This document shows, one piece after another, positions 3,603 through 30,961 of a DNA stretch of 64,000 bases. Origin of the DNA: a virus; the IMG/VR virus record IMGVR_UViG_3300044971_003100, positions 1 through 64,000 of that record; one strand, written 5' to 3'. Positions within the stretch are counted from its first letter, which is position 1. Each line of letters begins with the position of its first letter. The position numbers were made by a program, and so were the translations under genes. The notes below the pieces were generated by a model, which saw nothing but the letters and a program-made list of their open reading frames with translations, had not been told where the DNA came from and made no database searches.

Positions 3603-4071
3603 GACAGAGGTTGGGCCACTGTCTGGTTACTTTTGTATCCGGTCACGCCCAATCCTTCTGTTAACCCCCCCACGCTGCTCTGTCGGCGGGGTGCAGTCAA
3701 CAGGAATGGGCACTGCGTCGATTCTGGATCGGAAATTTTCGATCGTTGTTGACCTGCGTGAAGTCCTGGGTTTCCAGGCCGGAGGGTTGATCACCTCCGC
3801 CCGTCTAGTCCACGGTTGAGCCCTCAACCCATTTGGCAAGCTCGACGGACTGCATACGGTTGACCAACCGTCCCGGACCCGGCAGGGCCCCTTAGGGAGA
3901 AGGTGCCCCTACGGATCGCAGGTTAGATCCGTTCAAACACCCTCTATGCTTAGCTCCAGGACGCTGGATGATGCACAAACAGGAGGGTCACTGCGTCTTG
4001 GTGTAAGGAACACGCCTGGCACATAGCCAGGAGATACCGCCCGATACGGTAAGACGCCCTGCCTGACTAAT
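3603..4071 (+). ncRNA. Candidate large structured non-coding RNA
   Basis: No convincing gene lies between 3583 and 4071, yet the stretch is packed with local hairpins: 3611-3616/3647-3652 with inner stem 3625-3630/3635-3640; 3727-3731/3740-3744; 3765-3769/3774-3778; 3780-3785/3794-3799; 3814-3819/3824-3829; 3856-3861/3866-3871; 3911-3917/3926-3932; 4001-4004/4010-4013; 4015-4020/4026-4031; 4035-4039/4047-4051. An extended -10 promoter sits just upstream and a tRNA gene just downstream. This arrangement recalls large ornate phage RNAs such as GOLLD and ROOL, which lie beside tRNAs; identity with them is only inferred. Alternative: decayed tRNA genes. Confidence 0.5.
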
Positions 4072-4145
4072 GGCTCAGTAGCTCAGTTGAATAGAGCAAC
4101 CGCCTTCTAAGCGGTCGGTCACAGGTTTGAGTCCTGTCTGAGTCG
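4072..4145 (+). tRNA. tRNA-Arg (anticodon TCT)
   Basis: 74-nt cloverleaf. Acceptor GGCTCAG pairs with CTGAGTC (one G-T), anticodon arm ACCGC-CTTCTAA-GCGGT gives TCT, T arm ACAGG-TTTGAGT-CCTGT. It reads AGA codons, which tRNA-carrying phages often supplement. No encoded CCA. Confidence 0.93.
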
Positions 4146-4146
4146 T

Positions 4147-4248
4147 CGCCCAGTCCGAACCAACTGGACAGGTCGGTACCTGGCTGATGCGTTGGACGCA
4201 ATGCTATATGACAGGACTACGATGCGGGTTCGATTCCCGTCTGGGCGC
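4147..4248 (+). tRNA. tRNA-like element, anticodon undetermined
   Basis: Acceptor CGCCCAG (4147-4153) pairs perfectly with CTGGGCG (4241-4247), and a normal T arm (GCGGG-TTCGATT-CCCGT) precedes it. A D-arm-like CCGA/TCGG with a long loop is possible. The middle is about 20 nt too long: CCTG near 4179 can pair with CAGG near 4212 as an anticodon stem, leaving a 29-nt loop with its own small hairpin. It may be a decayed tRNA, a tRNA carrying an insertion, or the 3' end of the structured RNA before it. Confidence 0.5.
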
Positions 4249-4321
4249 TGGTAATCTATGCTAGTTTGTCTGCAATGGCGTGGGCTATATTTATTGGGCC
4301 TTTAGGGCCTGGAAGCGTTCA

Positions 4322-4450
4322 ATGTTCCCGCCAATATATCTGCAAAATATCCACGACCCATCGGACCCAGAAGCCTGGAGCCAGCGCATTGAAGCATCCG
4401 CTTTCTGGGTTCAATTAAATCGTGGATACTATGAAACAAGGGGATTGTAA
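4322..4450 (+). CDS. Small hypothetical protein (42 aa)
   Basis: Starts MFPPIYLQNIHDPSDPEAWS after GGAAG. The rest (RIEASAFWVQLNRGYYETRGL) is an amphipathic helix with aromatic residues. The composition looks coding. The stretch from 4249 to 4577 otherwise holds only a possible promoter (TTGCTT 4517-4522, TAAGAT 4539-4544, spacing 16). Confidence 0.55.
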   Translation: MFPPIYLQNIHDPSDPEAWSQRIEASAFWVQLNRGYYETRGL

Positions 4451-4577
4451 CGTAATGCAACAGTTGCGCCTGATGTGGTGTGTCAATAAATTGTAACACT
4501 GTGGGCGGGCCGGGGGTTGCTTCTTTCCAGTATTCGTCTAAGATAGAAAAGCAGTGGGATACCCATTACCCGAAACC

Positions 4578-4976
4578 ATGGCCAGAGCAAGAGGAAGAGT
4601 TTCCATTCCCAAAGAAGACCGCATTTGGGACCTGAGGTGCCAAGGTTATGACTATGACAGCATAGCCAGGATTACAGACGTTTCGGCCAGCACTCCTGGC
4701 CGCGTTGTCAGACGTGTTATGCGTCGGCCACCCGTGAGCGTCGATCCAGTCAAGCGTGGACGCAAGCAAGGCTTTTTTAGCGATCGTCAGATTTACGAAA
4801 TTCGCCTAAGGGCCCGCTTGGGTGAAAAGCAGGGTGACATTGCCAAAGAGTTTGGCGTTGACACCACAGCGATCAACAAGATTTGTTGTTTCAGAACATA
4901 CATGGAGCCCTGTCAGGATCAAACCGTCGAGGGCTATAAGTTCAACTTCGGAAACAGGCTAACTAGGGTCGCTTAG
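4578..4976 (+). CDS. Double helix-turn-helix DNA-binding protein
   Basis: 132 residues from the ATG at 4578; a GTG at 4554 in frame is possible. Two helix-turn-helix-like units: IWDLRCQGYDYDSIARITDV in the first third and YEIRLRARLGEKQGDIAKEF followed by GVDTTAINKIC in the second. The second matches the repeat common in HNH-associated and phage regulatory proteins. The N-terminus is very basic (MARARGRVSIPKEDR). It probably binds DNA, perhaps as a regulator. Its end overlaps the convergent gene at 4973 by 4 bp. Confidence 0.75.
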   Translation: MARARGRVSIPKEDRIWDLRCQGYDYDSIARITDVSASTPGRVVRRVMRRPPVSVDPVKRGRKQGFFSDRQIYEIRLRARLGEKQGDIAKEFGVDTTAINKICCFRTYMEPCQDQTVEGYKFNFGNRLTRVA

Positions 4977-5347
4977 ATAAAAGCGTATTCTGCCCTGTAG
5001 CTCTCTTCTTCGGAAGCCCAATCATAAAGGCCCAAGTCGGTGAAAAGCTCTCTTGGGCCAATTTTTTCGACCAGTTGCCGAAGGCACGGAAATACCATCC
5101 AATTGAATTCGGCATATGCCAATCCGAACATTCCCTTTTCCGCGAGGAAAAAGCTGTCGGTTGTATACTTGTTGCGATGAACGCGAATGATTGCCGGATA
5201 GCAAACCTTGTTTTGTGATACGAATTTCCTGGCAGCCGTAACACCTTGGATGCCGTTGCCATCGATTTGATGGGTTGCGACAAAGCTCAGGATGCGTTGT
5301 CCCTGCAGGCGGCGGCGGCTTGAACGTGGCTTGATTGGACGGGGCAT
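4973..5347 (-). CDS. Hypothetical protein (124 aa)
   Basis: Basic N-terminus (MPRPIKPRSSRRRLQGQR), then a likely alpha/beta domain with FGLAYAEFNWMVFPCLRQLVEKIG and a YDWASEEESYRAEYAFI tail. No family recognised. Convergent with the helix-turn-helix gene. Confidence 0.75.
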   Translation of the reverse strand: MPRPIKPRSSRRRLQGQRILSFVATHQIDGNGIQGVTAARKFVSQNKVCYPAIIRVHRNKYTTDSFFLAEKGMFGLAYAEFNWMVFPCLRQLVEKIGPRELFTDLGLYDWASEEESYRAEYAFI

Positions 5348-5409
5348 TGTAGGTCGTAGGGCCTTAGGCGGACATTAGCCTGTCTGGTAGCAGCCGTCTA
5401 CAGGAGATC

Positions 5410-5502
5410 ATGGGACGAGGATATTGCAAAGACGACCCGGATCGGCTACAGTGTGACGGTTGCTGCTCCCTTAGCAATCTGGTGAATGCAGTCGACTCAT
5501 AA
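5410..5502 (+). CDS. Cysteine-rich 30-residue ORF running into tRNA-Met
   Basis: AGGAG lies 3 nt before the ATG at 5410. The product MGRGYCKDDPDRLQCDGCCS continues for ten more residues, with four cysteines. The stop (TAA 5500-5502) is formed by the anticodon loop region of tRNA-Met. The ribosome site and composition suggest a gene or gene remnant interrupted by the tRNA; chance is possible. Confidence 0.35.
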   Translation: MGRGYCKDDPDRLQCDGCCSLSNLVNAVDS

Positions 5503-5537
5503 TCGACCTTAGGCGTGTTCGATCCACGCAGGGAGCA
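5465..5537 (+). tRNA. tRNA-Met (anticodon CAT)
   Basis: 73-nt cloverleaf. Acceptor GCTCCCT/AGGGAGC, anticodon arm GTCGA-CTCATAA-TCGAC, T arm GCGTG-TTCGATC-CACGC, discriminator A. CAT could be elongator Met, initiator Met or Ile with modified C34; these cannot be told apart here. The first acceptor pair is G-C, unlike typical bacterial initiators. Confidence 0.93.
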
Positions 5538-5560
5538 CTTATTCGTTATAATGTGGATGT

Positions 5561-5634
5561 GCCCGGTTAGCCCAGCGGAAGAGGCAACGGATTTAAGCTC
5601 CGTTCAGCGTTGAGTTCGAATCTCACACCGGGTA
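5561..5634 (+). tRNA. tRNA-Leu (anticodon TAA) with short variable loop
   Basis: 74-nt cloverleaf. Acceptor GCCCGGT/ACCGGGT, anticodon arm ACGGA-TTTAAGC-TCCGT giving TAA, T arm TGAG-TTCGAAT-CTCA, discriminator A. Bacterial tRNA-Leu normally has a long variable arm; here it is about 7 nt. A TATAAT at 5547-5552 would start transcription just before the tRNA. Its last 12 bases overlap the antisense HNH gene. Confidence 0.88.
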
Positions 5635-5961
5635 TTTCAATTCGACCAATCCAGCGTGCAGCAATCTGTGGCAAACCGCACACAGTGCAACGCACTTGTT
5701 AATCTCTTGCACCAGTTTTTCATACCCAACTTTTCTCAGAGCGGTAGATACCGTAAACTCTTTACCTGTCGGATCAACATGATGTAGATCCATGGCTGCT
5801 GGGGGAAATGTCTGCTTACAGATCAGACATGGTCCACTCTTTGCTTCAAGTATTATCTGCTTTTTTGTCTTGAAGTATGGCAACGAGCTTTTAGTACGGC
5901 GATGGCGCCTTGCCCATTCAGTCTGATATTTCCTGTTCTTCTCCCTGTCTTTATACGGCAC
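5623..5961 (-). CDS. HNH endonuclease-like protein
   Basis: 112 residues. A basic N-terminus (YKDREKNRKYQTEWARRHRR) precedes a zinc-held HNH core: CLICKQTFPPAAMDLHHVDP, then CVALCAVCHRLLHAG. The four cysteines would bind a structural zinc and the HH pair plus late His form the nuclease site. Such free-standing nucleases are common homing or packaging-associated enzymes in phages. Its 3' end overlaps tRNA-Leu on the other strand, consistent with insertion beside a tRNA. Confidence 0.85.
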   Translation of the reverse strand: MPYKDREKNRKYQTEWARRHRRTKSSLPYFKTKKQIILEAKSGPCLICKQTFPPAAMDLHHVDPTGKEFTVSTALRKVGYEKLVQEINKCVALCAVCHRLLHAGLVELKYPV

Positions 5962-16510: not shown

Positions 16511-19500
16511 TCACTTGAGCAATCCAGCTTGATCAGAGTCTTTCTCTGATTCTGTTAAACACTTAGCTGAATCACAGCCAGCAGCACCTTTCAGTTCATA
16601 GTCCGCATTGTCGTATTTCTTCAATAGGTCAAGAAATGTAACATCTTCCGGCAGCATTGAGCGAACGATTTTCACCGTAGCCATGCGACGTTCGTACATC
16701 TGCTTGTCGATTGGTTCAAACGGCAATCGTGGGAATGTTTCGTTTGCATCGAACCTGGCAAGCAGAGCAGCCGAAATGTATCCACCATCCGACTGGATTG
16801 ACTGGTGGACTAAATTAGCCAGTTGGTCTATTTCGTCTTGACGAAACTCCAGGGTTGCGGATGTGTTGTGCTGGGTGTATTCTTTTTGAACCTGCATATA
16901 GAGTCCCCACTGAGCGCTAACTGGTAACTTGCTAAGGTCGAACTCATCGCAACCAGGTAAATTAGCCCACGATACTTCTGTGGGGATTTCAACCAACACT
17001 TCGCGAACCCTGGGATCGCTGATGTCATCAAGCAGGTTACCGTCTTCGTCCCTGGCGCTTTGTGCTGGAATTACGTTGTAGCCGTAATCACGCAATGCAC
17101 TGACCAGTGGATCATTTACGCCAAAGGTAATCCGGCGGATGAAGCGCTGTGCCTTCGGCGGATGCCAGCCGCTGCTAGCGCCGGTCAACAGGCTCTTGGA
17201 GCCAGCAGGTTGCACTGTGGTGAACCTGTTTGGGACACGAATACCGTGCTGCTCGCAGTAGTCCCTGACACCCTGCTCGGCAGCAATCCTCCAGCCCCTG
17301 AGGAATTTCTTTTCCCTGGCATCGTACTTCTTGCACTCAGCACCACCAGGGCGACCTTTCATCATCCACTTCAGCCAAGGGGCACCAAAAGCATGCACAA
17401 AAAAGTCAAACAGGCCAGTAAAACTGACGCCAACAATCGGATCGTTTTCACGGCTATAAGAAAGGCGCTCGGGGACAAATTTGTGTTGTAGCAGGGCCGC
17501 AACTTGCAGACCACCGGCATAGAATGCCTGACGTTGCAGCTCTGAATCACTTGGATCGATAGTATTCAGATGGACCTCACTGAGGTTACATACGTTGTCA
17601 CGCATAAGGATTTCACCGCACTGTGCCACTAACAAAAGTGCCCCAAGGGTAAAGGCATGACTTCCGGGTACGGTGCAGCAGTACACTTCTGGCGCTGTGT
17701 ACGCAAATTCAATGGAAGAGACAACATTGGATTTACTCTTTACAGAGTGGGAGGTCTCTCTGCCTGCAAAAGATTTAAGGCGTTCAAATCTTACCCGTCT
17801 AGCCAGAATAATAGAGTTATATTGAGAAATAGCAAGCCGGTAGGTGTCTTTAACTTGACATACTCCCCCTTTGTCTGGACCAAAATCTTTGATGCCACCT
17901 TCGCGAACCGGACCGATTTTTGAATTGATGCCCATGGTGCGCAGTAAGGCCACTAGTCCACGCAAGAATGGCAAACTTACGCTGGTAAGTTGATAAGAAA
18001 AACCCTTTTTGCTATCCATCGCAGTGCCATCTGCATCGAATAATCCGGCTATAAACTCACCTTTCGCCTCGTCTGTCCAATTAAGCACCTCGTCGGGAAA
18101 TGTGTGCTTATATTTGTAACACCATTGATTCATGTCTTCGCAAGTAGAAGACAGTCCACGGATGTAACCAGCCCCGGTCAGCACTTCTAGATCATCAAAT
18201 GCTCCAAGCTCAATGAGAGATGCACGTAATCGATCCGCGCAAACTTTTTTTGGTGCGTACACCTTACAGAAAGCGCCTTTCCCTTTATTTGACGTACCAT
18301 CTCCGATCAGGAAGCCCTTCAGGTATGCGCCCTTTGCGTTTACTGAACCCTTGACCGGTTCAATCGTAGCAGCCAGTAGCTCATTGCCGGGCTTCAGGTC
18401 CTTCAGTTCTCTTCTGGTTCCATCTTTCAGGATAAACTTGTGGTATTCAGTAGCTGTAATAACTGTCCCATCATGCAATATTACATTGTAAACATCTTGA
18501 TCATTAGCAGTAACCCGGAAATTGTCAATGACGCGCCACTCGTTCCCATCATGAATTTCAACAGTCTCGCCAACCAGTGATTCGATCGGGAAATAACCTT
18601 CCCTGGTCATCACAATAGTGCCCGGAGCAAAGCACGGATTAAGCCCGTACCTATCCATCCGATGCTGAATGATGCGTTCATCGGTTGGTTCACCAGCTTT
18701 TTCCGCTAGTTCGGTCAGCATCTGACGTGCATCATCCTGACTGCGCACGTACAAAGCAAGGAACCGCTTCTTTAGTTGTTCTGTATTCAACAGGTCGGCA
18801 TTTGCCCTGGCGATCGACTCTGGCACATACATGATGGCACCTTCGCCGGACCAAAACTGCTTTTCGATACTGGCCCTGATCGTTTTATGGTCAGGTTTCG
18901 CATGGAAGCACAGGGTGTGATTGGCCATCCTGAGTGCTTCTTTTTCGGGATCTACGCTCCAGTTGCCGTTTTCATCCTGCTTATACAGGCCATCTTTGGC
19001 CGAAGCGGCCTCATTGTCGCAGGACGAAAATTGGCGCATGCCGGCGCTGCGGCGGATGTTGCCGGCCACTACTGCACTGGCTGCTTCATCAATCAGCAAG
19101 CAGCACTCAATCGATGTCAGCTTGCGCCCCTTGGCCTTGCAGAGCACTTTTGCCGCCCGCTCAAACGTCTCCCGCAGCCGAACAGGGTTAGCAGTGCCAC
19201 CAAAGCCCTTGAGGGGTTCACCCGCCTGGCGGACGTGACTCAGATCCAGCACTATTTCGGCATCGCAGTGGACTGTGTCCTCTTCCTCGTCTTGAGCCGG
19301 GTACCCCATAGCTAGGGTAATTAAACCCTGGTAGGCACTAGCCCAGCCCTGACGGGAATCGCCAACCTTGATTGTGATGATTGGCTTTTCATCAACAATC
19401 CCAGTAAACCTGATGGTTGTATCTGCATCGCCACCCTTGATTCCTTCGTTGTTCCTGATATTGCTAATAGAAACTTTTCTTTGAATTGGCGGCATGTTGT

Positions 19501-19876
19501 TTACAACGTCTTCCTCCATGACGGCGCCAGTGCCTGTTCCCATCATGGCCAGCTCCATCAGCAAGCCAAACATCGAGGGATCGTTTGCGTGCATCGAGCA
19601 GCAGTTGTAGTACCCAGGGAAGTTCTCTTGCTTCTTGGACCACTCCGTACCTGCAACCCACAACGCACGCCCGCTAGGGAAGCATTGCTGTCTCAGTCCA
19701 GCTTCAATACATAGCGCCTTCTGCTCCTGAGTAAATTTACCTACCTCTGCGATGGCAGATATTGTACGCGTAATTGCCTCTTCAAAGTTTTCACGCGACC
19801 CGTCTGCCTTACGCCGGGAGTACGAACGATAGAAAACCGCAGGCCCAGAAGGAGCGAATTGACCGAATTCCGACAT
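16511..19876 (-). CDS. nrdJ: Class II (B12-dependent) ribonucleotide reductase with intein
   Basis: 1121 residues including a 338-residue intein. Extein motifs: FPSGRALWVAGTEW, GYYNCCSM, the split active-site motif NPC/GEILMRDNVCNLSEVHLN, a central GNIRRSAG, and a C-terminal pair CDSAKC for reduction by thioredoxin/glutaredoxin. This fits monomeric adenosylcobalamin-dependent reductase, the type common in cyanophages. It makes deoxynucleotides for replication; the phage glutaredoxin at 20526 is a likely partner. Start at the ATG at 19876; a TTG eleven codons upstream is less likely. Confidence 0.95.
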   Translation of the reverse strand: MSEFGQFAPSGPAVFYRSYSRRKADGSRENFEEAITRTISAIAEVGKFTQEQKALCIEAGLRQQCFPSGRALWVAGTEWSKKQENFPGYYNCCSMHANDPSMFGLLMELAMMGTGTGAVMEEDVVNNMPPIQRKVSISNIRNNEGIKGGDADTTIRFTGIVDEKPIITIKVGDSRQGWASAYQGLITLAMGYPAQDEEEDTVHCDAEIVLDLSHVRQAGEPLKGFGGTANPVRLRETFERAAKVLCKAKGRKLTSIECCLLIDEAASAVVAGNIRRSAGMRQFSSCDNEAASAKDGLYKQDENGNWSVDPEKEALRMANHTLCFHAKPDHKTIRASIEKQFWSGEGAIMYVPESIARANADLLNTEQLKKRFLALYVRSQDDARQMLTELAEKAGEPTDERIIQHRMDRYGLNPCFAPGTIVMTREGYFPIESLVGETVEIHDGNEWRVIDNFRVTANDQDVYNVILHDGTVITATEYHKFILKDGTRRELKDLKPGNELLAATIEPVKGSVNAKGAYLKGFLIGDGTSNKGKGAFCKVYAPKKVCADRLRASLIELGAFDDLEVLTGAGYIRGLSSTCEDMNQWCYKYKHTFPDEVLNWTDEAKGEFIAGLFDADGTAMDSKKGFSYQLTSVSLPFLRGLVALLRTMGINSKIGPVREGGIKDFGPDKGGVCQVKDTYRLAISQYNSIILARRVRFERLKSFAGRETSHSVKSKSNVVSSIEFAYTAPEVYCCTVPGSHAFTLGALLLVAQCGEILMRDNVCNLSEVHLNTIDPSDSELQRQAFYAGGLQVAALLQHKFVPERLSYSRENDPIVGVSFTGLFDFFVHAFGAPWLKWMMKGRPGGAECKKYDAREKKFLRGWRIAAEQGVRDYCEQHGIRVPNRFTTVQPAGSKSLLTGASSGWHPPKAQRFIRRITFGVNDPLVSALRDYGYNVIPAQSARDEDGNLLDDISDPRVREVLVEIPTEVSWANLPGCDEFDLSKLPVSAQWGLYMQVQKEYTQHNTSATLEFRQDEIDQLANLVHQSIQSDGGYISAALLARFDANETFPRLPFEPIDKQMYERRMATVKIVRSMLPEDVTFLDLLKKYDNADYELKGAAGCDSAKCLTESEKDSDQAGLLK
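17621..18634 (-). other. Intein with LAGLIDADG homing endonuclease
   Basis: 338 residues inserted in the reductase active-site motif between NP and CGEIL (residues 415-752). Begins CFAPGTIVMTREGYFPIESL, with the usual nucleophile Cys1. Two LAGLIDADG blocks, GAYLKGFLIGDG and GEFIAGLFDADG, mark a homing endonuclease. The C-terminal end reads SHAFTLGALLLVAQ before Cys+1: the last residue is Gln instead of Asn and the usual penultimate His is Ala, a noncanonical splice site. Confidence 0.92.
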
Positions 19877-19947
19877 GATTGAAATTAAAGGGACTTTAGA
19901 TTGCCGCAAGTGACGCGAAAATAGCCGTACTCAAGCCGTAAATCGAC

Positions 19948-26165: not shown

Positions 26166-26372
26166 TCACTTCTTACCGATAGAGGCTACTGCGTAAACGA
26201 TAAAGGCAAGGAGGGCCAGGGCCAGCACTATTGCCAGGGGCAGCCAGAATGGAGACAACACCCACACCCACGGCCAGTTAATGTAACCAGTCAGCTTCAA
26301 TCCAACAAACAGAACACCAAGCAGTGTGGTTCCACTGGCGCTACCTATGTTCACGCTTTGTTGATTGCTCAT
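26166..26372 (-). CDS. Two-span small membrane protein
   Basis: 68 residues: first hydrophobic stretch GTTLLGVLFVGLKLTGYI, then WPWVWVLSPFWLPLAIVLAL into a second. I recall similar W-rich short phage membrane proteins with the LKLTG--W-WWWVL-PFW motif. Function unknown; holin-like in size. Confidence 0.85.
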   Translation of the reverse strand: MSNQQSVNIGSASGTTLLGVLFVGLKLTGYINWPWVWVLSPFWLPLAIVLALALLAFIVYAVASIGKK

Positions 26373-27223
26373 CAGAACAAGTCCTCAAATTCGGGGCTGT
26401 AGGTCGAAACTGGTGAGCGGTACCAAGTTGGCAGGCTCAGTACATTATAGCAAACCTCTGGTCGAGGCCAATCCTTGGCATCTAAACACTTTTTTAACAA
26501 CTGCCGCGCTCGCTTGATCTGACGATTACCTTCGTCCATCATCTCATCCGAAATCTCAAACAGAGACAATGTCCACGGTTCCGTCCTTTCGATTGCGGCA
26601 AAAACAAACTTGCATGGTTTGTTATACGCAAGACTAGCGGCCTCTGCGTACCATGCCGACTGAAACAGATAATTCATGCCACCTACCAGCTTCTTAAGGA
26701 AGGTGCTGTATTCGACCGAATCGGTGCTCTTAAGATCCAGTATCATCAAATGATCACCCATGTCAACCAGTCTGTCAAGTCGCCCCTTACAGGGAATACC
26801 ATCCACTTCCCAGTAAATAGACAGCTCGTTGTATTTGCGATAATCGGGCTGGGATTGGTTAAACCACTCCAAGCGCAGCAATGATTCGGCCATGCCGTGA
26901 ACACTATCCCAAGCCTTTTCTTTTTCATTATTCGTCAGGATTGTTTTACCTTTCTGGCTTGCCTTCCATTCTTTTCCCTCCTTGGTGGCCAGGGAGATGT
27001 CTTCCGGTTTCAGGATGTAGCGACGATCAAATTCTTCCTTGCCCTCCAGGACCAGGCAATGCAGAGCAGAGCCGATCTCCATGTTAATAGTAGGAGCGAA
27101 CTTTCTCTTTTTGCCAGCCCTGTAATGAGCTGGACTTACTAAGATATTCTTAAGGTAGCTTTGGTTCTCTCCAAGCTCTCTGCGGTAGTCGGGGTCAGGC
27201 TGGTTGTAGGCTACCGTCGCCAT
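26372..27223 (-). CDS. RecE-like PD-(D/E)XK exonuclease
   Basis: 283 residues. GSALHCLVLEGKEEFD, then IPCKGRLDRLVDMGDHLMIL and DLKSTDS form the active site of the RecE/exonuclease VIII fold (H, D, D-x-K). It would chew 5' ends to give single strands for the annealing protein encoded at 30188. A TATAAT at about 27247 lies at the end of the upstream gene and could start its transcript. Confidence 0.88.
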   Translation of the reverse strand: MATVAYNQPDPDYRRELGENQSYLKNILVSPAHYRAGKKRKFAPTINMEIGSALHCLVLEGKEEFDRRYILKPEDISLATKEGKEWKASQKGKTILTNNEKEKAWDSVHGMAESLLRLEWFNQSQPDYRKYNELSIYWEVDGIPCKGRLDRLVDMGDHLMILDLKSTDSVEYSTFLKKLVGGMNYLFQSAWYAEAASLAYNKPCKFVFAAIERTEPWTLSLFEISDEMMDEGNRQIKRARQLLKKCLDAKDWPRPEVCYNVLSLPTWYRSPVSTYSPEFEDLF

Positions 27224-28795: not shown

Positions 28796-29146
28796 TCAGA
28801 ACGGAACTTCCTGTTCCTCGCCTTTAGGTCGATCATCAAGGAAGGTAACGGAAGCATTCTTGATGTCCAGGAACAGCTTTTCGTTGTACATTCGTTGCAC
28901 AAGCTGACCGGAAACGCCAACCTTGTCGCCGCGCTGGATCCGTTGCATTACGATTTCAGCGGTCTTGCCTCGCACTTCGCATCGATAGAACTGTCCCTGA
29001 CGCTCAGAGCCAGGTTTCGTATAAACGTAAGCGCGGTCAGCGACGGAGAAACTGACAACAGGGTCGCCAGTCTCAAAGGTCTTCACGGTTACCGGCGATT
29101 CACCGGGGCGGCCAGTTACGGTTCCTGCAATACTAATGGTAGCCAT
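28796..29146 (-). CDS. ssb: Single-stranded DNA-binding protein
   Basis: 116 residues of OB fold: ATISIAGTVTGRPGES, VVSFSVADRAYVYTKPG, FYRCEVRGKTAEIVMQRI, then QRGDKVGVSGQLVQRMY. The tail GEEQEVPF is a bacterial SSB-type tip (E-x-PF). It coats single strands and would recruit replication partners. Its own promoter (TTTAAC at 29200-29195, TATAAT at 29176-29171, spacing 18) sits just upstream. Confidence 0.93.
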   Translation of the reverse strand: MATISIAGTVTGRPGESPVTVKTFETGDPVVSFSVADRAYVYTKPGSERQGQFYRCEVRGKTAEIVMQRIQRGDKVGVSGQLVQRMYNEKLFLDIKNASVTFLDDRPKGEEQEVPF

Positions 29147-29212: not shown

Positions 29213-30010
29213 CTATACCGCAGTGGCAATCAGCCTGAGTTTCTCAAGGGCAGTTTCACGCAAAGCAGCAACCTTTCCCCTGGAGATCGAATTGGCGTGC
29301 ATTATGTCTTTAACTTTCATCTCATCTATAAACAGGCTTTCCAGTACCTTGACCTGATCGTCACTTAGCCCTGCCGCCTGGATCAGGTCATCCATTTCAC
29401 ACGAAAAACGAGCCGTGCTTTCGGTGCTGGGCGGATACTTACTTTCTAGGCACTCAATGATCGAAATATCGCCATCTTCGCCTATTGGTGTATCGACAGA
29501 GATTACCGCTTGAGCGGAGCGCACAAGTCTTGTTAACGCTTCGCCCGCTTCGTGGCTTTTGTTTTTAACGAATCCGTACTTTTCAAAGGAATAGGCATCA
29601 CGACAGGCGTTTTCCGGTATATGAAATATACTAGACGCCTTGATCGCGTAACGACCGACAAAAGACCTGATCCAGTAGGTTGCGTATGTGGCAAAAGTAT
29701 AACCAGTTTCTGGGTCATACTTTTCTGCAGCCCTTATCAGGCCGAGCGCTCCTGTTTGCAGCAGATCGAGTGTCTCCGGGCCTCCCCATCCTTTCTTCAT
29801 CTTGCCGTCCATGTACAAATGGACCGACCTGATAACCAGTCTCAAGTTATGAGACACCAACTTGTTCACATAGAACTTATACTTTGGGCTCCCGACCTCG
29901 TGTGACTTAATCTTCTTTGCGATGATCAGCATTTCTTCTTTACTCAAGACCGGCTTACTGCCTGCGGCGTTCATCCAGGCAGTAATTTCGTTGCTCAAGC
30001 TTTTCGACAT
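29213..30010 (-). CDS. Sigma-70 family RNA polymerase sigma factor
   Basis: 265 residues. Region 2: LVSHNLRLVIRSVHLYMDGK, then LDLLQTGALGLIRAAEKYDP and ETGYTFATYATYWIRSFVGR. Region 3 follows (YAIKASSIFHIPENACRD). Region 4 helix-turn-helix: LSDDQVKVLESLFIDEMKVK, then ISRGKVAALRETALEKLRL. A full factor likely to direct middle or late transcription. Ends at 29213 before the SSB promoter. Confidence 0.93.
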   Translation of the reverse strand: MSKSLSNEITAWMNAAGSKPVLSKEEMLIIAKKIKSHEVGSPKYKFYVNKLVSHNLRLVIRSVHLYMDGKMKKGWGGPETLDLLQTGALGLIRAAEKYDPETGYTFATYATYWIRSFVGRYAIKASSIFHIPENACRDAYSFEKYGFVKNKSHEAGEALTRLVRSAQAVISVDTPIGEDGDISIIECLESKYPPSTESTARFSCEMDDLIQAAGLSDDQVKVLESLFIDEMKVKDIMHANSISRGKVAALRETALEKLRLIATAV

Positions 30011-30041
30011 TGGTCGGGAACAGTCAAGAGAATGATAGACG

Positions 30042-30068
30042 AGAAAAAGAGCCTGTCTAAGGCTCTTT
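30042..30068 (-). terminator. Intrinsic terminator with a stop codon in its loop
   Basis: AAAGAGCC (30046-30053) pairs with GGCTCTTT (30061-30068), 7-nt loop. On the minus strand it is followed by TTTTTCTC. The TAG that ends the -1-frame extension of the annealing protein lies in the loop (30059-30057). Confidence 0.8.
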
Positions 30069-30191
30069 ATAATCTCTTATGATCACACCATGGAATTCCT
30101 TTGCAAAGAACTGGGTTGCCCAGTCAATGAAGTCCACCTTGGTGCGTTGCTGCGGATCGTCGAGCCTTGGGAAGTGCTGAGCGTTCTTCAG
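30057..30191 (-). CDS. Extra frame after the annealing protein: -1 frameshift product or CTG-start gene
   Basis: A coding-looking frame (LKNAQHFPRLDDPQQRTKVD, FIDWATQFFAKEFHGVIIRD, YKEP) begins at a CTG overlapping the stop of the annealing protein gene (CTGA) and ends inside the terminator. No ATG is available. The frame is also open, with no stop, back to the A_AAA_AAG site at 30230-30224 in the annealing gene, so a -1 shift there would add 55 residues instead of the normal end. Confidence 0.5.
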   Translation of the reverse strand: MKNAQHFPRLDDPQQRTKVDFIDWATQFFAKEFHGVIIRDYKEP

Positions 30192-30961
30192 TACGCCTCT
30201 GGATTCGACTTCTGTGTGGGAGTCTTTTTTGCGGCCTTGGTGGGCTTCTCCTGTTGAGGCTGCGCCGATTCCTCGGGATTCGCCTTCTGGTTTTGCTCAA
30301 TCACCCATGCTTCTGTCTTGCTGGCAAGGGTTTTGATTCCTCCGGCGTAATTTGAGCCAATCACCTCAAGCAACTTATCCGCTGCCAGTGTGGACAGCCC
30401 CTTCTCCAGGCAGGCCTCCAGGAAGTCCTGCATAGTGGCTTGTTTTTCGGCCGCAAAGGCCTCTGCGGGGGCTGTAGGCGCAGTGGTGGCACGGATGCTG
30501 CTTACAGGGCTCACAGGGGCCGTAGCGTCGCTCTCAGAGGCCTGTGAGTAGCCGCTTTCCAGTGGCATCTTCGCCCACAGCTCAACCGCCAGGCCAAATG
30601 TCATAGCAGCAAGCATGCAGCCGCCACGGCGGTGCGTGTCGGTCACATCCCTGGCGGCAATCTTGTCAAACGGAATGGATCCGTTCCGGTTGTCCATGAT
30701 TGCCTGCGGCGCTGGAGCCAGACACGTGCCATCAACATGGCAGAACCGCAGCATCAGGTAACCGCCATTGCCGGGTGCCCGCCAGACAGCAGCTCCTTCC
30801 GGCGACAGGACCACGTCCAGGTACCAGCCGGGAGCATGCTCGTGCAGCAGGTTAAACGTCCGAGCCCAGTTGATATAACTTGCTTTGTAGCTGCCAGTTC
30901 CAATCGTCTCAACAAGATCCTTAGTTGCGACACCTGCGAGATTGGGGATACAGTCGGGCAT
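30188..30961 (-). CDS. Single-strand annealing protein (Sak/DUF1071-like)
   Basis: 257 residues. YINWARTFNLLHEHAPGWYL, PQAIMDNRNGSIPFDKIAAR, then DVTDTHRRGGCMLAAMTFGL and AVELWAKMPLESGY match DUF1071/Sak annealing proteins. After a Thr/Ala-rich linker comes a small helical domain and a Lys-rich tail with the slip site A_AAA_AAG (30230-30224). It would pair complementary strands exposed by the RecE-like exonuclease. Annotated here as the unshifted product. Confidence 0.85.
   Translation of the reverse strand: MPDCIPNLAGVATKDLVETIGTGSYKASYINWARTFNLLHEHAPGWYLDVVLSPEGAAVWRAPGNGGYLMLRFCHVDGTCLAPAPQAIMDNRNGSIPFDKIAARDVTDTHRRGGCMLAAMTFGLAVELWAKMPLESGYSQASESDATAPVSPVSSIRATTAPTAPAEAFAAEKQATMQDFLEACLEKGLSTLAADKLLEVIGSNYAGGIKTLASKTEAWVIEQNQKANPEESAQPQQEKPTKAAKKTPTQKSNPEAY

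Follow-up and report, generated by a model that had tools for sequence, protein, structure and literature searches.

A candidate programmed -1 frameshift site near the end of a viral single-strand annealing protein gene

The annealing-protein gene and its out-of-frame tail

The DNA examined here (the window, 64,000 nucleotides) makes up most of the 65,809-base IMG/VR virus record IMGVR_UViG_3300044971_003100. On its minus strand lies a gene (30188..30961) for a Sak/Rad52-like single-strand annealing protein of 257 amino acids, identified by profiles, a structural model and Foldseek. The gene ends with the codons GCC GCA AAA AAG, then ACT CCC ACA CAG AAG TCG AAT CCA GAG GCG TAC, and the stop TGA at 30190-30188. 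An earlier note on this DNA had placed a slippery heptamer, A_AAA_AAG, at 30230-30224 of the minus strand, with AAA and AAG as zero-frame codons. A check of the sequence confirmed this: the heptamer is in phase (GCA AAA AAG in the zero frame), 11 codons before the stop. The -1 frame was also found to pass the normal stop and to end inside the terminator, as had been stated; it is open from 30296 to a TAG at 30059-30057 (minus strand), in the loop of a terminator-like hairpin. The 55 codons that would be read after a shift (30060..30224, minus strand) lie mostly beyond the zero-frame stop and encode a conserved tail, FPRL..IDWA...A..F.G.II.DY. The extension had been given as 55 residues; 55 new residues do follow the heptamer, but they replace 11, for a net gain of 44 and a frameshift product of 301 amino acids. 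The claim that the -1 frame lacks ATG, GTG and TTG is correct for the overlap and the region upstream of it, but inside the tail there are two GTG codons in frame (30137-30135 and 30086-30084). In 44.9 kb of window genes, 24 in-frame X_XXY_YYZ heptamers were counted, and only the A_AAA_AAG described above has a -1 frame that runs past the end of its gene.

Against PHROG profiles, the annealing protein matched phrog_21418 (E 8e-58), whose function is unknown, and the single-strand annealing protein (SSAP) family phrog_3290 (E 5e-4). The match to PF06378 (Sak SSAP) was below the curated cut-off (16.4 bits versus 22.3, E 0.0066), and the protein is therefore named Sak/Rad52-like and not a Pfam Sak member. 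In an AlphaFold2 model (mean pLDDT 73) built with 27 relatives, the N-terminal domain is confidently placed. Residues 134-172 form a disordered linker, about 177-232 a helical C-terminal domain, and 232-257 a disordered end in which the slip site lies. The N-terminal domain is predicted to have a Rad52-like fold. The top Foldseek matches were structures of Sak from phage 80alpha (8qe9 and 8pq8, E about 1e-4), followed by RAD52 structures; Sak80alpha and human RAD52 share with the model an N-terminal annealing domain, a linker and a helical C-terminal domain. It has been shown that Sak80alpha forms rings of 17-18 protomers and that its C-terminal domain coordinates with the single-strand DNA-binding protein, SSB (PMC11846896); no frameshift tail, of the kind proposed for the protein studied here, is described in that paper.

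Slip sites and tails across related loci

Five viral-contig scans plus phage records were collapsed to 197 non-redundant loci. Behind the zero-frame stop, 66 of them have a tail homologous to the -1 extension: 17 (16 viral contigs and the window) in the -1 frame, 48 in the +1 frame and one in the zero frame. Each of the 17 -1 loci has a canonical X_XXY_YYZ heptamer, in phase, within the overlap that is open in the -1 frame. The heptamer is A_AAA_AAG in the window, L005, L006, L008, L009, L010 and L014; C_CCA_AAG in L007, L011, L092 (twice), L093, L169, L172, L236 and L238; and C_CCT_TTT in L167 and L170. The earlier note had proposed conservation of the heptamer and of the -1 frame in homologs as a check; a canonical heptamer, though not always A_AAA_AAG, was observed together with the -1 frame at every locus of the set. 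Cases in which the A run is lost and the frame kept, which the same note had taken to speak against shifting, do occur, in the ten loci with C_CCA_AAG or C_CCT_TTT. Each of these has its replacement heptamer in phase, and such turnover of slip sites supports frameshifting.

The position of the heptamer relative to the stop varies from -10 to -61 across the 17 loci, and the differing distances indicate that it is not one inherited word. L236 and L238 joined the set after the heptamer rule had been noticed, and both obey it. The -1 frame of L236 becomes open at -28 and its C_CCA_AAG follows three bases later, at -25, which leaves almost no alternative slip site upstream. A canonical heptamer is present in the last 60 nt of 16 of the 17 -1 loci (in L093 it is at -61), versus 3 of the 48 +1 loci and 1 of 130 untailed homologs. 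Under synonymous recoding of the same peptides, 1.67 of the 17 loci would be expected to carry one; the product of the per-locus chances is about 10^-17.7, a figure that overstates the case because the loci are related. In a maximum-likelihood protein tree the 17 loci form one group (support 95/77), on which the heptamer type has changed at least five times, always between canonical types. Judged from these sequences, the persistence of the slip-site property while the heptamer itself changes is a stronger argument than the recoding statistics.

The suggestion that the -1 frame looks coding was upheld. In six disjoint pairs of -1 tails, differences at codon positions 1/2/3 numbered 58/44/97 (p 1e-5), third positions varying the most, and the tail is conserved across the 17 loci. 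Seven disjoint pairs of +1 tails gave 9/6/24 (p 8e-4). The -1 tails share the conserved features FPRL and ID.A..LA..F.G.[IV][IV].DY, and the +1 tails share L...FF.G..[IV]. The tails of L236 and L238, which were outside the training of the tail profile, matched it with E values of 5e-9 and 1e-7. No convincing match of the tail to a known domain was found in Pfam, PHROG, PDB or phage records, and the profile had no match among the other open reading frames (ORFs) of the window and of the fetched loci. Conservation of the tail is too low for a profile search with tails alone.

No tail fused in frame was found among the 66 tail-bearing loci or the distant homologs. Only two remote homologs were found in bacterial genomes, both without the tail, and in homologs outside the tail-bearing clades the C-terminal ends are unrelated. 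The sole locus with a tail in the zero frame is L017 (3727-3786), where a weakly matching tail stands behind a TGA (KHHLRSFISFFDGTLVTE); this may represent read-through, an assembly indel or decay.

Frameshifting and other explanations

Comparison of the sequences suggests that programmed -1 ribosomal frameshifting at A_AAA_AAG very probably yields two forms of the annealing protein. Most ribosomes would terminate at the TGA and release the 257-aa protein. A minority would slip back one base on the heptamer, where both tRNA-Lys could re-pair (AAA AAG to AAA AAA), and would read on to the TAG to give the 301-aa form, in which the conserved tail (FPRL..., then the amphipathic ID.A..LA..F.G.II.DY) would replace the disordered end. 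According to PMC5009743, A_AAA_AAG and C_CCA_AAG are both highly shift-prone in E. coli. It is therefore plausible that shifting takes place at a low level even where strong stimulators are absent, and we infer that its rate would be a useful one. If the annealase forms a Rad52-like ring of about 17-18 subunits, frameshifting of a few percent would provide about one tail per ring. The tail follows a C-terminal domain whose Sak80alpha counterpart coordinates with SSB, and its most likely role would be that of a docking peptide on a minority of subunits, for example for SSB or the replication machinery.

Several observations weigh against this interpretation. The strong slipperiness of A_AAA_AAG applies to bacteria that have only one tRNA-Lys, and may or may not extend to the host here. 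The 17 loci belong to one clade and hence are not independent. A Shine-Dalgarno (SD)-like element lies 7-10 nt upstream of the heptamer in only about 7 of them, and that of the window is 17 nt away. No conserved stem or pseudoknot was found after the heptamer in the 17 loci, and fold z-scores scatter around 0: strong folds occur in four (L014, L093, L236 and L238), and the window is not exceptional (z of -0.1 for 60 nt after a 5-nt spacer and -1.2 for 85 nt after the heptamer). Finally, the same tail is encoded in the +1 frame in the sister clades.

An improbable alternative is that the tail is a separate small protein, for which ribosomes would terminate and reinitiate at a codon other than ATG that overlaps the stop; this codon is CTG in the window, and certain relatives have TTG or GTG. 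At every locus the two frames overlap at the stop. A GTG overlaps or adjoins it in L169, L172, L236 and L238 and a TTG in L008, and in the window a weak AGAGG stands 4 nt before the CTG. Translational coupling is also indifferent to frame and could cover the +1 clades. However, 10 of the 17 -1 loci have no ATG, GTG or TTG from -75 to +12, and a separate gene is unlikely for want of a usable start codon; in five of these (L007, L010, L011, L092 and L014) the start position is taken by TTA or CTA. By lineage, the -1 codon overlapping the stop is CTG, TTG, TTA, CTA, GTA or GTG. Likewise, ATG, GTG and TTG are absent in 22 of the 48 +1 loci and occur at no conserved position in the others. Reinitiation predicts neither the heptamers in 17 of 17 loci nor the opening of the L236 -1 frame at its heptamer. 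The separate gene from CTG that the earlier note had offered as its alternative is thus improbable, and a search of the homologs turned up none in which the second frame forms its own gene with a normal start.

Transcriptional slippage on the A run, giving mRNAs one base longer or shorter, is very unlikely: the window does have six A in a row, and some dnaX and transposase genes make use of polymerase slippage (PMC5009743 and PMC3711429), but six A is short for polymerase slippage, 10 of the 17 loci reach the same -1 tail with C_CCA_AAG or C_CCT_TTT, whose runs are of three or four, and the common site class fits tandem tRNA slippage. An equally slight chance is given to the readings that the open frame beyond the stop arose by chance and goes unexpressed, or results from faulty assembly. 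The short extension and the metagenomic contigs might suggest them, but they are contradicted by a tail conserved with codon periodicity in 17 non-redundant loci and found in another frame in 48 more, three of them the sequenced isolates S-CRES1, S-CRES3 and S-CBS2.

Frameshifting as proposed for the annealing gene is a mechanism of known kind. The tau/gamma gene of E. coli, dnaX, uses the same A_AAA_AAG in a DNA-metabolism gene to make two products with a common N-terminus. In dnaX, however, the shift gives the shorter product, whereas here it would give the longer one, and dnaX has an upstream SD element and a downstream hairpin, whereas no such conserved stimulators were found here. Most phage genes known to frameshift encode structural proteins such as tail chaperones and capsids. 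The -1 frameshift of gpG/gpGT, the tail assembly chaperone of lambda and its relatives, takes place in a gene for tail morphogenesis, not recombination, and the gpGT extension is longer than the roughly 40-residue tail of the annealing protein. Some phages shift by -2 or +1 instead in the tail assembly chaperone, and in capsid and tail genes of Listeria phages the same C-terminal extension is reached by -1 shifting in some and +1 in others (A118/A500 versus PSA), as described in PMC5009743. The Listeria genes differ in encoding structural proteins and in having a proline codon as the +1 site, versus Trp or Tyr before UGA in the relatives described below. In the open-access literature covered, no previous description of a frameshift in a phage annealing protein or recombinase was found, and none is mentioned in the passages located in a review and two papers on frameshift prediction. 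If frameshifting is confirmed, these phages would set the ratio of two annealase forms, and would allow a test of the effect of minority modified subunits in a Rad52-like ring. Dozens of viral genomes, sequenced Synechococcus phages included, would miss a conserved part of the annealing protein, because the annotation of the phage records examined drops the tail.

The +1-frame relatives and the gene neighborhood

Unexpectedly, in 48 sister loci, Synechococcus phages included, the tail starts in the +1 frame at the stop itself, in the context TGG TGA Y or TAY TGA (L012, L016, L025 and others), an arrangement that the earlier note had not foreseen. Three of them are sequenced phages, S-CRES1, S-CRES3 and S-CBS2. 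The arrangement is present in the phage records GU936714, OQ587939 and OQ587941. The stop is TGA in 44, TAG in three and TAA in one. The codon before it is TGG in 32 of the 48 and TAY in 15, and the base after it is T or C in 47. Because the +1 frame of several loci becomes open just 26 nt ahead of the stop, the switch of frame must be very near the stop. In one subclade, 12 loci have an unvarying TTT C at -15 to -30, although TTT otherwise makes up half of the Phe codons there; it would permit P-site slippage from UUU to UUC. No slip codon common to the entire +1 group was found, and TTT C is absent from the larger S-CRES-like clade.

Tentatively, and with less than even confidence, we suggest that one conserved tail may be kept out of frame across a large viral family and reached by programmed recoding both ways: by -1 shifts at classical heptamers in one clade, and in its sisters by +1 shifts at UGA or immediately upstream of it (UGG_UGA_Y for the S-CRES/S-CBS2-like clade and possibly UUU_C for another). 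The ratio of tailed to untailed subunits in the rings would then be a selected trait. At UGG or UAY before UGA, the usual re-pairing in the P site would not be possible during a +1 shift, and such a site would be unusual among bacterial +1 sites. With the sister clades, -1 and +1 recoding toward one product could also be compared in nature.

A stable hairpin further down, the terminator, had been mentioned in connection with the slip site. It is present at 30046..30068 of the minus strand (9-bp stem, 5-nt loop, then a T run; -14.7 kcal/mol, z -3.19), but a role as frameshift stimulator was rejected: it starts about 155 nt after the heptamer, too far for an ordinary stimulator. A promoter-like TAGACA-16-TATCAT (30032..30059, minus strand), identified by consensus match only, begins in the terminator loop, upstream of the sigma gene. 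The same arrangement, a -35-like TTGAC or TAGACA in the terminator loop with a -10-like hexamer about 16 nt on, was seen in the window (30032-30068, minus strand), L012, L016, L025 and others, and TTGAC is present behind the stop in 41 of the 48 +1 loci. The terminator and the promoter of the phage sigma gene seem to overlap.

The next gene downstream of the annealing gene encodes a sigma-70 family protein (29213..30010, minus strand; PF04542, E 1.5e-10). Two genes downstream of the annealing gene lies that for SSB (28796..29146, minus strand; PF00436, E 4e-12), a candidate partner, and a PD-(D/E)XK nuclease is encoded at 26372-27223; the annealing gene is thus located near SSB and nuclease genes. 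The order annealing protein, sigma factor, SSB is common to the window and its relatives, which include the Synechococcus siphophages S-CRES1-3 and S-CBS2, and the hosts of the virus are probably cyanobacteria. In S-CRES2 (L003, OQ587940.1 3956-4651) the annealing gene is annotated as two ORFs (gp7 and gp8), whereas in its near twin S-CRES1 it is unsplit. Three tRNA genes (Arg-TCT, Met-CAT and Leu-TAA), none for lysine, are found at 4071-5635 of the window. A large reductase-like ORF of 1132 aa (16511-19909, minus strand) contains a stretch, CFAPGTIVMTREGYFPIESL...VAQC, that appears intein-like, as judged by eye only.
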